A stretch of 64,000 bases of DNA, taken from assembly GCF_007750855.1 (NCBI RefSeq), contig NZ_CP036291.1:4216001-4280000 (forward strand). The letters run 5' to 3'. Source of the stretch: Pirellulimonas nuda (lineage in GTDB: Bacteria > Planctomycetota > Planctomycetia > Pirellulales > Lacipirellulaceae). The notes under the pieces are model-generated. The model was not told where the DNA came from. It saw nothing but the letters and a program-made list of their open reading frames with translations, and made no database searches. Both the position numbers and the translations under genes were made by a program. Positions 25,685-34,880 of this stretch are shown piece after piece; positions within the stretch are counted from its first letter, which is position 1; each line of letters starts with the position of its first letter.

Positions 25685-25985
25685 CGACCGATCCCGGAAA
25701 CCAGCGGCGCCAAAGGGTATTTAGAATCTACCCCCCGGTTCATGGGGGGTCAAACAAACCGGCGCGGATCAGAAACCGCCCCCAAACGATGCCCAATAAC
25801 CGACGGGCTCCGCCCCGTCGCCGGGTAGGGATCGATTGATTCCTGTGGTTCGTCTCTGCGGGGGGACCGGGATTCAAGTTCGGCGACGGGGCGGAGCCCG
25901 TTGGCTAGTTGTGGGGGCTGGGTCCTGGGTGGGGATGGGATCGACACGGGTTGACAGCCAGATGCGTTGCAGCGAAGATTTTTTG
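25685..25985 (+). promoter_or_regulatory. Upstream region of the metal ABC importer operon
   Basis: About 300 nt between divergent genes. It contains a perfect 7-bp hairpin ACCCCCC/GGGGGGT (25730-25750). It also has an inverted pair of a GC palindrome seen elsewhere in the window (CGACGGGCTCCGCCCCGTCG at 25801-25820 and its complement-like copy at 25884-25903). A candidate -35 TTGACA at 25951 has a weak -10 (GAAGAT) 17 nt later. The promoter assignment is tentative. Confidence 0.35.
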
Positions 25986-26000
25986 ATGAGTCAAAAAATC
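25977..26000. promoter_or_regulatory. AT-rich palindrome at the start of the metal ABC operon, candidate operator
   Basis: A perfect 10-bp inverted repeat, GATTTTTTGA and TCAAAAAATC with a 4-nt TGAG spacer, overlaps the ATG at 25986 and ends just before an in-frame GTG at 26001. It stands out in a GC-rich neighbourhood. Shape and position fit a metalloregulator (DtxR/MntR or Zur-type) operator. An RNA hairpin covering the start codon is the alternative. Confidence 0.5.
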
Positions 26001-27002
26001 GTGGCCGTTTGCTCAAATGCACGCATTCTGCTGGCCCTTGGCGTCGCAGTGAGCGCCGGCGTCGGCTGCGGGGGGGGCCAGCCCGGCCCCCGGGCGACGC
26101 GGTTCCAGGGCGAACCGCCGCTGCAGATCGTCGCCACCACGGGGCCGGTGGGAGACGCCGTCCGGCACGTGGCCGGCCAGCACGGCGAGGTCACTACCCT
26201 GATGGGGCCCGGGGTCGACCCCCACCTCTACAGCCAAGAGCGGGACGACATGGTCCGCTTGGAGAACGCGGACGTCGTCTTCTACAACGGCCTGCACCTC
26301 GAAGGCCGGCTGGCCGACGTGCTGGAGGGGCTGGCCGCGCGACGCGCCGTGTTCGCCGTCACCGATCGGCTGGTAGAAGAAAACGATCCTCGGCTGCGGC
26401 AGGTCGAGGGGTTCTACGGATTCCCCGACCCCCACGTGTGGCACGACGCCGCGTTGTGGGCCGATTGTGTGCGTCAGGTGGGCGAAGACCTAGCAGAGTT
26501 CGATCCGGAACGCGCCGCCGACTACCGCAAGAACGCAGCCGACTACGCCGCACAGCTCGACGCCCTGGACGCCGAGGTGCGCGAGAAAATCGCCTCGATC
26601 CCACCGAAGCGTCGCGTGCTGGTGACCGCTCACGACGCGTTCGGCTACTTCAGCAAGACGTACGGCATGGAGTCGCTGGGCCTCAAAGGGATTAGCACCG
26701 AAGACCAAGTCGACCTGGCGCGGATGAACGAGGTCGTCAATACGCTGGTCGACCGCGACGTCCCCTGTGTGTTCGTCGAGTCGGCCGTTGCGCCCAAGAT
26801 CATGGAAGCGCTGGTCGAACCCTGCGAGGCGCGTGGGCACACGGTGCGTATCGGAGAAGAACTGTACGCAGACGCGCTGGGGCGACCGGCCGACGGCGCC
26901 GACACCTACGTCGGCATGATCCGAGCGAACGTCGCGGCGATGGTCGACGGCCTGAGGGGCGGCGAACCATCGGAGCCGGAGGAGGGCGCCGACGCGCCAT
27001 GA
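25986..27002 (+). CDS. Metal ABC transporter substrate-binding lipoprotein (ZnuA/MntA/TroA family)
   Basis: 338 residues from the ATG at 25986 (a GTG at 26001 is also possible). A short signal sequence ends in the lipobox-like VSAGVGC. The cluster A-I pattern is complete: [30 protein letters not shown] with a metal His, [10 protein letters not shown] with two further His, and [17 protein letters not shown]. The long flexible His-rich loop of zinc-type ZnuA is absent, which leans towards Mn/Fe binding, but metal identity is not settled. It delivers metal to the permeases encoded downstream and overlaps the ATPase gene by 4 nt. Confidence 0.93.
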
Positions 27003-27790
27003 GCGATTCGCCCCAGGCCAACGGCGGCGGCGTCGCGGCCCTCGAGGTCCACGACCTGACCGTTGCGTACCACCGCCGCCCCGTGCTGTGGAACATCGAC
27101 TTTGAGACGGCGCCGGGCCGGCTGGTCGGCATTATCGGCCCCAACGGCGCCGGCAAGACCACCCTCATTAAGGCCATCTTGGGCCTGGCGCCGCTCGCCA
27201 GCGGCCGGGTCGAGATCTACGGCAAGCCGTTCCGCCAGCAGCGCCGGCTGGTGGGCTACGTGCCGCAGCGTGAGTCGGTGGACTGGGATTTCCCGGTGAA
27301 CGCCCGCGACGTGGTGCTGATGGGCTCCTACGGCCGGCTCGGCTGGTTCCGCCGTCCCGGGAAGAAAGAACGCCAACTGGCCGAGCAGGCGCTGGCGGAC
27401 GTCGGCCTTGCGGGGCTCGAAACGCGGCAGATCAGCGAGCTCTCCGGGGGGCAGCAGCAGCGCGTGTTCCTGGCGCGGGCGCTCGTGCAAGACGCGTCGG
27501 TGTACTTCATGGACGAGCCCTTTGCCGGGGTCGACGCCGCTACCGAGCAGACGATCTTTGCCCAGCTCAAACAGCTCCGCTCGGCGGGCAAGACGGTGTT
27601 CGTGGTCCACCACGACCTGCAGACGGTGCGCAAGTACTTCGACGACGTCGTGCTGCTCAACCTCCGCCTCGTGGCGGCCGGGCCGGTCGCCACAACGTTC
27701 ACCAACGACAACCTGCAACGCACCTACGGCGGCCGGCTAACCATCCTCGAACAAGCCGCCGAAGCGGTCCGCCGCGGGGAAGGCGCCTGA
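26999..27790 (+). CDS. Metal ABC transporter ATP-binding protein
   Basis: 263 residues. Walker [11 protein letters not shown]-loop [13 protein letters not shown], signature LSGGQQQRV, Walker [13 protein letters not shown] and H-loop VHHDL are all intact. [16 protein letters not shown] is typical of Mn/Zn/Fe importer ATPases. It overlaps the binding-protein gene by 4 nt and is separated from the first permease by a 185-nt gap holding an inverted-repeat element. Confidence 0.95.
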
Positions 27791-27809
27791 AGAAGCAGCG
27801 AGGAAGATT

Positions 27810-27954
27810 GCCACGAAAAGGCACAAAAAAGCACAAAGACGGACGGAGTACAGTTTTCACCTTGAGGATTGCTTGCGTCAATTTTCAATTTGCAATCCTG
27901 CCTTCGTTCTTGTGCTTTTTTGTGCCTCGTCGTGGCCAAGATCGTCCGTCCGTC
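27810..27954. repeat. Mosaic inverted-repeat element inside the metal ABC operon
   Basis: The left arm (CCACGAAAAGGCACAAAAAA, 27811 on) and the right arm (27901-27954, TTTTTTGTGCC then CGTGGCC) are complementary over about 30 nt. GACGGACGG units lie at both ends in opposite order. The element starts 19 nt after the ATPase stop and ends 21 nt before the permease GTG. Confidence 0.85.
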
Positions 27955-27975
27955 TAGCACCAAGATAGTTCGACC

Positions 27976-29328
27976 GTGATCCTCGACCCCATCGTCTCGA
28001 AGCTGCTCGTCGGCGCCGGCTTGCTGGGCGCCTCGGCGGGGATTGTTGGCGCGCTTGCGGTGCTGCGGCGGCGGGCGCTGGTGGGCGACATGCTGGCCCA
28101 CGCGGCGCTGCCGGGCATCTGCCTGGGCTTCTTGGTGGTGGGCACGCGCAGCGCCCCGGCGCTCACGCTGGGCGCGCTGGCCACCGGGCTGCTGGGGGTG
28201 GGGCTGGTGGCCCAGATCCGCCGCTTCACCCGCACCGGCGAGGACGCGGCGCTCGCGATCGTGCTGAGCACCTTCTTCGGCGCCGGCGTGGTGCTGCTGT
28301 CGATCATCCAGCGGAACCCCTCCGGCGAGCAAGCGGGGCTCAACCAGTACCTGTTCGGCGAGATCGCCGCACTGACGCGTCGGGATGTCGACGTGCTGGC
28401 CGTGCTGCTGGTCTGCGTCGTCGCGGTTACCGTGCTGCTGCACAAAGAAGTGAAGACATGGCTCTTTGACGAGGGGTTTGGCCGCACGCTGGGGCTGCCG
28501 CTGCTGTGGCTCGACTGGGGGGTGATGGGGCTGGTGGCGCTGGTGACCGTGGTGGCGCTGCCCATCTGCGGCGTCGTGCTCACGGCCGGCATGCTGATTT
28601 ACCCCGCCGCGGCGGCGCGGTTCTGGACCGGGCGTTTCGGCGCGCTCGTGGCGCTGGCCGGGCTGATCGGCGCGGCCGTTGGGGCGGTCGGCATCGTCCT
28701 GGCGTCGCTGGCCGGCAGCGCCACGGGGCTGCTGGGCACGGTGCTGCGTGGCGACCACGGTTCTCCCCCGCCCCCGGGACCGGTGATCGTGCTGCTGGGG
28801 GGCTTGGTGTTCTTGGCGTCGATGCTGTTCGCGCCGCGCCGCGGGGCGGTGGTGCGTGCCGTGCGGATGGCCCGGCTGCGGCTGCGGATGGGCTCCGACC
28901 ACCTGCTGCGCAGCCTGTTTGAGCTCGTCGAGCCGAACCTGCCCGCGACCCCGGACGTCGTGCTTTCGCAGGCCACCGAGTCGCTCCCCGAGTCGGGCAT
29001 GCTCGAACGCCTGGTCGTGCGAGACGCGATGGCGCGGGACTGGATCCGCTCCACCAGCCCCGGCAGGGTGCAGTTGACCCCCGCCGGCCTGGCCGCGGCG
29101 GCCGACGTGACGCGCAAGCACCGGCTATGGGAGCTGTACCTGCTGGAGCACGCGGACATCGCCGCGGACCACGTGCACCGCGACGCAGACGACCTCGAAC
29201 ACCTGCTGCCGGCCGAACTGGTAGCGGGCCTAGAGCGGGCCCTGGCGGCCGAAGGGAAGCTGCCCGACTCGCCCGACAACCTGCGTGTCCCTACTTCTCC
29301 CCACGCACTCGAGGCGGGCGATGCTTGA
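27976..29328 (+). CDS. Metal ABC transporter permease with C-terminal DtxR-like domain
   Basis: 450 residues, GTG start, versus about 280-300 for a plain ABC-3 permease. Residues 1-290 hold 8-9 membrane helices with VGDMLAHAALPGICLGF, the hallmark of the family. Residues about 305-440 are soluble. A winged-helix-like segment ending VQLTPAGLAAAADV is followed by HRLWELYLLEHADI and VHRDADDLEHLLP. This matches the metal-binding and dimerisation helices of DtxR/MntR (His of HRL; Asp, Glu, His of DDLEH). A metal sensor fused to the transporter is inferred. The stop overlaps the next start by 8 nt. Confidence 0.92.
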   Translation: MILDPIVSKLLVGAGLLGASAGIVGALAVLRRRALVGDMLAHAALPGICLGFLVVGTRSAPALTLGALATGLLGVGLVAQIRRFTRTGEDAALAIVLSTFFGAGVVLLSIIQRNPSGEQAGLNQYLFGEIAALTRRDVDVLAVLLVCVVAVTVLLHKEVKTWLFDEGFGRTLGLPLLWLDWGVMGLVALVTVVALPICGVVLTAGMLIYPAAAARFWTGRFGALVALAGLIGAAVGAVGIVLASLAGSATGLLGTVLRGDHGSPPPPGPVIVLLGGLVFLASMLFAPRRGAVVRAVRMARLRLRMGSDHLLRSLFELVEPNLPATPDVVLSQATESLPESGMLERLVVRDAMARDWIRSTSPGRVQLTPAGLAAAADVTRKHRLWELYLLEHADIAADHVHRDADDLEHLLPAELVAGLERALAAEGKLPDSPDNLRVPTSPHALEAGDA

Positions 29329-30601
29329 GGGATGGAACAGCTTCGACACACGCGCCGTGATGCTGGCGCTGGCCACCAACGTCTGCTGCGCGCTCGTCGG
29401 CACGTTCCTGGTGCTGCGCCGCAAGAGCATGGTGGGGGACGCCCTCTCGCACGCCGTGCTGCCCGGGCTGGCGGTGGCGTTCCTATTGAGCGGCAGCCTC
29501 GGCAGCGGCTTTATGCTGCTTGGCGCCGTCGGCGCCGGGCTGACCGCGACGCTGCTGACCGAGCTGGCCGAGCGACGCGGCGGCGCCATCGCCGACGCCG
29601 GGCTGGGGGTGGTGTTTACCTCGCTGTTCGCGCTGGGCGTGCTGCTGATCAAACGCTACATCAGCGGCGTTCACTTTGATATCGCCTGCGTCTACGAGGG
29701 GTCGCTGCTGTCCGCGGCGCTCGACACCGTGCACTCCGGCCCGCTGCAGGGGATGCCGACGGCGCTGTTGACCAGCGTGCCGCTGGCATTGGGGGTAGCG
29801 CTGCTAATCGGCTTGTTCTGGAAGGAACTGATGATCACGTCGTTCGACCCGGTGCTGGCCAGCAGCATGGGGGTGGGCGCCGGCCTGCTGAACTACGCCC
29901 TGATGGGGGTCGTGTCGTTGGCCGCGGCGGTGTCGTTCCAAACAGTCGGCTCGGTGCTGGTGGTGGCGATGCTGATTATCCCGGCCGCCACGGCGCAGTT
30001 CCTTTCGAACCGCGCCACGCGCGTGCTGGGGATCGCGGTGCTGCTGTCGGCCCTCAGCACCGCCGCGGGGTACGCCCTGTCGCTGGCGTGGCGGGCCTCG
30101 CCCGCGGGATCGATGGCGCTGGCCGCCGGGGGCGTCTACGCCTTTGTGGCGCTGGCTGCGCCGCGCCGCGGGGTGATCGCCAAGCTGGTCGCCAGCATGA
30201 GCCTCGCCGCCCGGGTGCGTGGAGACGACCTGCTGACCCGGCTGTACCGGGACGAAGAGCACCCCGGCCCCGAGGGCGCCCCGCACGCGCTCGACTGGAT
30301 CGACCGCTTCGTCCGCTGGCGGCTGGTGAGTCAGCAGAGCATCGCCCGATCCGCCGGCGGGTACGCCCTGACCCCCTCGGGCCGAGAACGGGCCGGGCGG
30401 ATCGTCCGCGCCCACCGGCTGTGGGAGAGCTACCTGGTGGGAGAGGTCGGGCTGCCCGCCGACCACGTGCACGAGCCGGCCCACGCGATGGAGCACTTCC
30501 TCGACCACGGCCTGCGGCAAGAGATCGAAGCCTCACTGGGCGCGGCCGCTACGGACCCCCACGGTCGTGAGATCCCAAAAGACAGCGGCGCCGGCGACTA
30601 A
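29321..30601 (+). CDS. Second metal ABC transporter permease with C-terminal DtxR-like domain
   Basis: 426 residues from the ATG at 29321, which overlaps the previous stop; an upstream in-frame start at 29285 is less likely. The ABC-3 permease part (VGDALSHAVLPGLAVAF) is followed by a soluble region of about 130 residues with YALTPSGRERAGRIVRAHRL and HEPAHAMEHFLDH. The HRLWE and MEH motifs of the DtxR/MntR metal site are kept, although the acidic residue before MEH is His here. With the first permease it probably forms a heterodimeric channel. Its TAA stop shares the bases CTAA with the convergent tsaB stop. Confidence 0.92.
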   Translation: MLEGWNSFDTRAVMLALATNVCCALVGTFLVLRRKSMVGDALSHAVLPGLAVAFLLSGSLGSGFMLLGAVGAGLTATLLTELAERRGGAIADAGLGVVFTSLFALGVLLIKRYISGVHFDIACVYEGSLLSAALDTVHSGPLQGMPTALLTSVPLALGVALLIGLFWKELMITSFDPVLASSMGVGAGLLNYALMGVVSLAAAVSFQTVGSVLVVAMLIIPAATAQFLSNRATRVLGIAVLLSALSTAAGYALSLAWRASPAGSMALAAGGVYAFVALAAPRRGVIAKLVASMSLAARVRGDDLLTRLYRDEEHPGPEGAPHALDWIDRFVRWRLVSQQSIARSAGGYALTPSGRERAGRIVRAHRLWESYLVGEVGLPADHVHEPAHAMEHFLDHGLRQEIEASLGAAATDPHGREIPKDSGAGD

Positions 30602-34702: not shown

Positions 34703-34880
34703 CTTGACCACGGATAGCACGGATTTCACGGATAGACGTTGGCCACGAAAAGGCGCGAAAAAGCACAAAAAGGAAACGTGGCGTATCGACAGCTCAAGAA
34801 CCTAGCCCTTCGGTTCTTTGTGCATTTTGTGCCTCTTCGTGGCTATCGTCCGTCTTCCGTGAAATCCGTGGTCAAACAAG
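34703..34880. repeat. Mosaic inverted-repeat element between yidC and mnmE
   Basis: Nested arms. The outer pair shares a CCACGGATTTCACGG-type unit (left 34707-34733, right ending near 34875). The inner pair is GCCACGAAAAGGCGCGAAAA (34742 on) and its complement near 34820-34845. It starts 7 nt after the yidC stop and ends 16 nt before mnmE. The outer unit recurs near 63238-63264. Confidence 0.85.

Follow-up and report, generated by a model that had tools for sequence, protein, structure and literature searches.

In Chlamydia trachomatis, the ytgABCD operon encodes YtgCR (CT069), a permease with a C-terminal DtxR-like domain whose cleaved part is described as a repressor acting with iron (PMC5599777, PMC7755916, PMC6504234). 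Orthologous permease-DtxR fusions are reported in 11 phyla in the account of PMC5599777, in which TroR appears as a separate repressor protein. In the MetNI and ModABC transporters, dimerizing C-terminal substrate-binding domains shut the transporter, as described in PMC10710835. Here we analyzed a metal importer operon in a 64,000-nucleotide stretch of the Pirellulimonas nuda genome (contig NZ_CP036291.1, positions 4,216,001 to 4,280,000; hereafter the window), in which both permeases, perm1 and perm2, carry a C-terminal extension with the fold and the metal ligands of DtxR-family repressors and without the DNA-binding signature of that family.

The window resembles the published description of YtgCR in joining a permease to a C-terminal DtxR-like domain within a metal-importer operon with two permeases. 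Its differences are the fusion of both permeases, an unrecognizable DtxR DNA-binding domain and an operon palindrome that tracks stand-alone regulators, whereas YtgR is described as binding DNA once cleaved. Because of this precedent (PMC5599777) the permease-DtxR architecture is not new. In listings of open-licence PMC papers, no description was found of a double permease fusion that has lost the DNA-binding signature, or of cases from Planctomycetota. The substrate-binding protein (SBP) of the window is nearest to TroA among solved structures, and the tro operon of Treponema likewise has two permeases; in the window, however, the counterpart of TroR is fused twice.

Fused repressor cores on both permeases

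The two permease genes and the domains that they encode are as follows.

27976..29328, + strand: perm1, ABC-3 permease with extension, 450 aa, GTG start at 27976
27976..28830, + strand: ABC-3 permease domain of perm1, residues 1-285 (Pfam ABC-3, E 9e-47)
28873..29076, + strand: winged-helix-like domain of perm1, about residues 300-367, DtxR DNA-reading helix unrecognizable
29077..29244, + strand: metal-binding/dimerization domain of perm1, residues 368-423 (Fe_dep_repr_C, 48.4 bits)
29321..30601, + strand: perm2, ABC-3 permease with extension, 426 aa, ATG start at 29321
29321..30157, + strand: ABC-3 permease domain of perm2, residues 1-279 (Pfam ABC-3, E 1e-41)
30203..30370, + strand: winged-helix-like domain of perm2, about residues 295-350 (AF2 secondary structure)
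30371..30580, + strand: metal-binding/dimerization domain of perm2, residues 351-420 (Fe_dep_repr_C, 75.1 bits)

For perm2, the ATG at 29321, from which the frame overlaps the perm1 stop, is a better start than the GTG at 29285. The extensions beyond the last membrane helix of the AF2 models comprise 165 aa in perm1 (286-450) and 147 aa in perm2 (280-426). All motifs that had drawn attention to the two long reading frames (LTPAG or LTPSG, HRLWE, and LEH or MEH) are present.

Assignment of the extensions to the DtxR family, as proposed from these motifs, was borne out by several lines of evidence. The Pfam family Fe_dep_repr_C, the metal-binding/dimerization domain of iron-dependent repressors, was found above its cut-off of 27 bits in perm1 (E 9.3e-13) and perm2 (E 4.3e-21), and in each permease PF00950 (N-terminal) and PF02742 (C-terminal) lie above cut-off in one chain, the combination of a YtgCR-type fusion. 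A phmmer search of the PDB with perm1 found SloR, DtxR, ScaR and IdeR, the best match at E 2.2e-8; with perm2 it found manganese- or iron-dependent repressors including 5zr4 and 8pvt, the best match at E 1.2e-13. Family profiles built from 26 perm1-type and 26 perm2-type proteins aligned with MntR, DtxR and IdeR chains from helix 1 of the winged helix to the end of the dimerization domain, with best E values of 2e-19 and 2.2e-24, respectively. The AF2 models (mean pLDDT 88.5 for perm1 and 88.8 for perm2) matched DtxR-family structures over 128 residues in the perm1 extension (Z up to 12.8, 2.8 Å) and 130 residues in that of perm2 (Z up to 16.6, 2.3 Å). Since profiles and models cover both domains, winged-helix helix 1 included, the entire two-domain DtxR/MntR core is fused; the original prediction had recognized only the end of the wing and the helices.

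In the winged-helix-like region of perm1 the model places helices at 291-321, 330-334 and 342-353 and wing strands at 357-361 and 364-367. In perm2, the helix-turn-helix (HTH) would be expected to begin with a helix at residues 314-325, a stretch in which the model has none (pLDDT about 70). Both extensions are assigned to the cytoplasm because an Arg-rich stretch follows the last membrane helix (K/R to D/E in the first 30 aa, 8:1 in perm1 and 6:2 in perm2) and the extension lies on the same side as the coupling-helix loop. The placement outside the cytoplasm that the original prediction had named as fatal to its proposal was thus not what the sequences indicate. The extensions of perm1 and perm2 are 39% identical, the membrane parts 31%. 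An internal start that would give a free DtxR protein was considered and rejected: the ATG codons near the junctions (perm1 298 and 305, perm2 293) encode a Met that is not common to the aligned relatives.

Conservation, loss and spread of the fused domains

Ligand positions were compared in an alignment of 26 perm1, 45 perm2 and 36 stand-alone DtxR proteins, all from Planctomycetota. The base sets comprise all 26 perm1-type proteins that were found, 26 of the 28 perm2-type proteins (L045 and L027 were excluded for a wrong or partial frame) and 36 of the 42 stand-alone proteins, among which three rows are duplicates; a cut-off perm1 piece in L046, sorted with the stand-alone proteins, was also excluded. 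The 45 perm2 rows combine the 21 extension-bearing rows of the 26-protein set with 24 further loci, and at least two of them duplicate other rows. Positions are given in DtxR residue numbering, mapped through L001, a stand-alone DtxR-type protein of the window's genome.

None of the 71 fused domains deviates at the positions of DtxR H79, R80, E83, E105 and H106. At the H98 position, His occurs in 45/45 perm2 domains and in only 10/26 perm1 domains, among them that of the window; at the C102/E99 position, the perm1 domains have Asp or Glu and most perm2 domains have His or Glu. The corresponding residues in the window are H382, E386, H401, D405, E408 and H409 in perm1 and H365, E369, H384, H388, E391 and H392 in perm2, which also has D303 in the preceding domain.

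The DNA-binding part behaves differently. While Fe_dep_repr_C is present in 26/26 perm1, 21/26 perm2 and 36/36 stand-alone proteins, the DtxR DNA-binding family PF01325 was recognized in one of 26 perm1 proteins (E 0.038), in none of 26 perm2 proteins and in all 36 stand-alone controls. A Pfam scan found it in neither permease of the window, so that of the two families named in the original prediction, Fe_dep_repr_C was recovered twice and Fe_dep_repressor (PF01325) not at all. The recognition-helix consensus of the stand-alone set (T55 in 33/36, M57 in 35/36) is not conserved in the fused domains. Conversely, the variable residue of the motif H-R-L-x-E is Trp (HRLWE) in 70/71 fused domains and in 1/36 stand-alone proteins, 35 of which have I, L or V. 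The absence of PF01325 together with a metal-binding/dimerization domain with conserved ligands argues for a DtxR-derived domain that is not a DtxR repressor. It shares the two-domain core, the metal ligands and the dimerization domain with DtxR, IdeR and MntR, and differs from them in being fused to a membrane protein, in the Trp of HRLWE and in the unconserved DNA-reading helix.

The original prediction had proposed to determine the frequency of the fusion. Among 148 Planctomycetota genomes (completeness floor 90%), a permease fused over its full length was counted in at least 50, and two such permeases in at least 35; a few of the counted matches contain a stop codon. By a strict threshold of at least 450 bits, 25 of 39 near relatives have a full-length perm2 fusion, and 21 of these have a second permease frame with Fe_dep_repr_C. 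Five of the 26 perm2-set proteins are without the dimerization domain; in L037-L041 perm2 is without this domain and perm1 retains it, and in genome G318 both permeases are without it. In a phylogenetic tree, the perm1 and perm2 extensions fall together on one side of a branch with the other sampled DtxR domains opposite (support 98/91, root arbitrary), which fits a single origin of the fusion, and the perm2 extensions alone form a group with a support of only 59/79. One contig scan gave six loci, all in Planctomycetota records. A related permease occurs in 1272 plasmid records; among the best 40 of these, no product name indicates a fusion. Most matches do not go beyond the permease part, although some weak ones (H2, H12, H25, H26; 25-31% identity) extend further.

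Related architectures were also encountered. In L110 (1872-3416) and L111 (2652-4682), a permease is fused to an HRLWE-bearing DtxR domain and has a longer tail, with no second permease in the stretch seen, and the L110 fusion has SBP-like genes on either side. HRLWE also occurs in the DtxR metal domain of seven other proteins, encoded by frames of 340-395 aa (L095 2409-3443, L096 2995-4017, L097 2700-3731, L098 2768-3808, L105 2241-3275, L109 2836-4023, L094 2807-3841), six of which have an N-terminal hydrophobic stretch as judged by eye. L095, which was scanned, contains two FeoA domains and gave no match to the DtxR HTH. These frames are possibly membrane-anchored sensors of another transporter, and those with a hydrophobic stretch suggest that the membrane-tethered DtxR branch of Planctomycetota is wider than the fused permeases. 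A DtxR-like metal/dimerization domain was seen at the C-terminus of ABC ATPases in L100 (2735-3838), L101 (2224-3315), L102 (1882-2979) and L103 (1983-3071); the scanned L100 has ABC_tran and Fe_dep_repr_C and no HTH match, the sensor here being on the ATPase and not on the permease. An 806-aa frame in L040 was rejected as a FeoB-IdeR fusion, as Pfam finds an ordinary IdeR at its end and nothing else.

The operon, its palindrome and stand-alone regulators

Upstream of the permease genes lie the following features.

25977..26000, no strand: palindrome GATTTTTTGA-TGAG-TCAAAAAATC with 10-bp arms, spanning the SBP start codon
25986..27002, + strand: SBP gene, substrate-binding lipoprotein of the TroA type (Pfam ZnuA, E 1.6e-78)
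26999..27790, + strand: ABC ATPase of the metal type (ABC_tran, E 4.6e-30)

The top PDB match of the SBP was TroA (1toa, E 3e-67), and the alignment columns of the TroA metal ligands (H, H, H and D) are identical. For the ATPase, the top NCBIfam match was MntA of Deinococcus with 234.8 bits, below the cut-off of 400 for that family. The modeled membrane parts matched PsaC (7kyp) with Z 31.1 over 263 residues for perm1 and Z 31.6 over 266 residues for perm2. With a TroA-like SBP, ABC-3 permeases and a metal-type ATPase in a single operon, the locus has the composition of a TroABCD-type (cluster A-I) importer. By sequence, it encodes a divalent-metal importer of this type, for Mn, Fe or Zn, with two different permeases. 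The gap between the ATPase and perm1 genes (27791-27975) is occupied by an imperfect inverted repeat of considerable length, with an RNA fold of -72.9 kcal/mol (z -6.4). Its building block GGCACAAAAAAGCACAAAGA is found again at 34752 (3 mismatches) and 47581 (1 mismatch), so that the gap is probably a dispersed repeat within the operon.

The palindrome at 25977-26000 is a probable operator of the operon. Its core TTTTTTGAN4TCAAAAAA has no further copy in the 6.6-Mb genome, even with up to 2 mismatches. The exact shorter form TTTTGAN4TCAAAA occurs in 29 copies in 18 of the 39 relatives, against 3 copies in 2 genomes for a reversed-pattern control, and 9 of 17 fetched copies sit at the 5' end of an SBP gene. 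There is no DtxR-type gene within the operon, so the original prediction was correct in seeing no separate regulator nearby. For the genome as a whole this did not hold: two stand-alone DtxR-type genes lie elsewhere, L001 (231 aa, IdeR type) and L004 (171 aa, MntR type).

The palindrome follows the stand-alone regulator. In 8 of the 36 rows of stand-alone proteins, which represent 7 genes, it is found at the start of the IdeR gene, one of these copies having one mismatch; in 5 of the 7 genes an SBP gene lies divergently on the opposite side. Among the 39 genomes, it is present in 16/22 with an IdeR-type regulator and in 2/17 without one (p 0.0003, ancestry ignored); among the 25 fused genomes, the numbers are 9/13 and 0/12 (p 0.0005, ancestry ignored). 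In 8 of the 9 palindrome-bearing fused genomes a copy lies at the SBP gene of the operon, and in G323 the fetched copy is elsewhere. Nine further palindrome genomes are outside the strict fused set, of which G121, G319, G321 and G329 have partial or single fusions. In G304, a member of the window's family whose sole Fe_dep_repr_C match is a stand-alone protein, the same palindrome stands between the M16-M16-GNAT neighbors known from the window and an NRAMP gene (Pfam Nramp) that replaces the whole ABC operon (L148 5-5359).

A second motif, TGTAGCCN2GGCTACA, precedes the operon in five genomes of another genus (read in the loci in three; inferred in two, about 2 kb before perm1). In the window's genome, the stand-alone mntR gene has two copies of it, one of which deviates at a single position, and the copies at L004 1178-1221 lie between a pilin-like gene and mntR. 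Tandem copies also precede a pilin-like gene in L135, L136, L144, L145 and L146 (DUF1559 in L144, which was scanned). A further candidate, TGAGACN3GTCTCA (L056, L058 and L059; L055 with one mismatch), was rejected as operator of the IdeR-less genomes: it occurs in 12/39 relatives, and only the copy at 3253094 in G310 lies about 2 kb before perm1. Of two Phenol_MetA_deg-type genes, probably encoding outer-membrane proteins (L115 1580-2551 and L055 366-1364), one lies behind a TTTTGA palindrome and one between mntR and the importer, and a Fur-family gene lies downstream of a TTTTGAN4TCAAAA palindrome in G321 (L128 1664-2164).

Proposed action on the transporter and alternative functions

Metal sensing that is kept, DNA reading that is lost and transcription that is apparently handled by other proteins together point to an action on the transporter itself. 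We therefore hold, with about even confidence, that the extensions are cytoplasmic metal sensors that inhibit the importer by feedback. An ancestor would have joined a whole DtxR/MntR core to the cytoplasmic end of the permeases, where it would have been retained as a metal sensor and not as a gene regulator. Sufficient cytosolic metal would fill sites of the H79/E83/H98 and C102/E105/H106 type, and both extensions of a transporter, being natural DtxR protomers, would pair or stiffen beneath the membrane. They would then hold the importer in a non-cycling state, turning it off and not on, by a feedback or trans-inhibition like that of MetNI and ModBC. As in MetNI and ModABC, a C-terminal cytoplasmic domain is added to an importer, and the predicted fold, ligands and placement in the window are compatible with such a role. 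Transcription would be controlled separately, by stand-alone DtxR-family repressors at the palindrome. More tentatively, and slightly short of even confidence, we suggest that a metal-sensing repressor, losing its DNA-reading part in the process, was turned into a post-translational valve on both importer halves, its two protomers forming a metal-controlled pair under the membrane.

Several observations weigh against feedback inhibition of this kind. The known relative YtgCR acts as a repressor after cleavage, as described in PMC5599777, and the sensor of MetNI and ModBC is on the ATPase, whereas that of the window is on the permease and has a DtxR fold. At the H98 position, 16/26 perm1 domains have Asp. 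The absent Pfam HTH match is no proof of lost DNA binding, given that the models still predict a winged-helix fold and single relatives weakly match other HTH families. The association of palindrome and IdeR comes from related genomes whose shared ancestry is uncorrected, and of 26 SBP genes read upstream, that of the window included, 6 have TTTTGA (up to 1 mismatch), 4 have TGTAGCC and 16 have neither. With 1 mismatch, several genomes have about as many matches to the reversed TGTAGCC control as to the pattern itself, so that the places of this motif are informative and its numbers are not. Finally, the palindrome is absent at the gene start of L001 itself, whose recognition helix reads GTVTSM, against GTAT in the 7 IdeRs whose own gene starts carry the palindrome.

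Some of these points would suit a regulator like YtgCR, with one or both DtxR domains cleaved off, or acting tethered, and silencing the operon from the palindrome under metal surplus. The domain order is the same as in Chlamydia, where the cleaved part is described as binding the promoter of the ytgABCD operon in an Fe2+-dependent manner (PMC5599777, PMC6504234), and a palindrome that is unique in the genome is what a dedicated autoregulator would have. The winged-helix fold is also still predicted. We nevertheless consider this explanation unlikely. PF01325 is unrecognized in 51/52 family members and present in 36/36 stand-alone proteins, the palindrome is missing in 12/12 fused genomes without IdeR and present in the fusion-less G304, and another genus has a different palindrome before the operon. 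Of the two functions that the original prediction had put forward, allosteric gating is accordingly favored; the membrane-tethered regulator is disfavored because the DNA-binding family is unrecognized in nearly all members and the palindrome tracks the stand-alone regulator.

An extension that merely takes the ion leaving the permease and passes it on or stores it, as a chaperone, buffer or ratchet without control of the pump, would account for the cytoplasmic position and for the retention of metal ligands without the DNA-binding signature. Retention of the dimerization core and the rest of the fold goes beyond the needs of a metal sink, and DtxR-type sites are sensors of micromolar affinity, which makes such metal handling quite improbable. 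Two protomers per transporter would equally suit a dimer that joins the permeases or turns the importer on, in the metal-bound or apo state; the C-terminal domains of CDF exporters are described as activating upon metal binding (PMC10710835). The perm2 proteins without a dimerization domain (5/26), and G318 with neither, indicate that the domain is not generally required for assembly, and we regard an activating or assembling role as doubtful. Degenerate passengers without function might have lost the DNA-binding signature in the same way, and would hardly have kept five ligand-region residues invariant in 71/71 domains; we give this explanation almost no weight.

Feedback control of high-affinity Mn, Fe and Zn ABC importers is usually sought in transcription. 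If feedback inhibition by the extensions is correct, the presence of the cell's own metal-sensor fold on both permeases would add a fast post-translational control, and the importer would clearly exemplify how a repressor can become a regulator of transport. The compact operon is well suited to mutants in the ligand residues. The finding also bears on the origin of YtgCR, in which a fused sensor may have acted on the pump at first and have turned to DNA only in certain lineages, or the order may have been the opposite.

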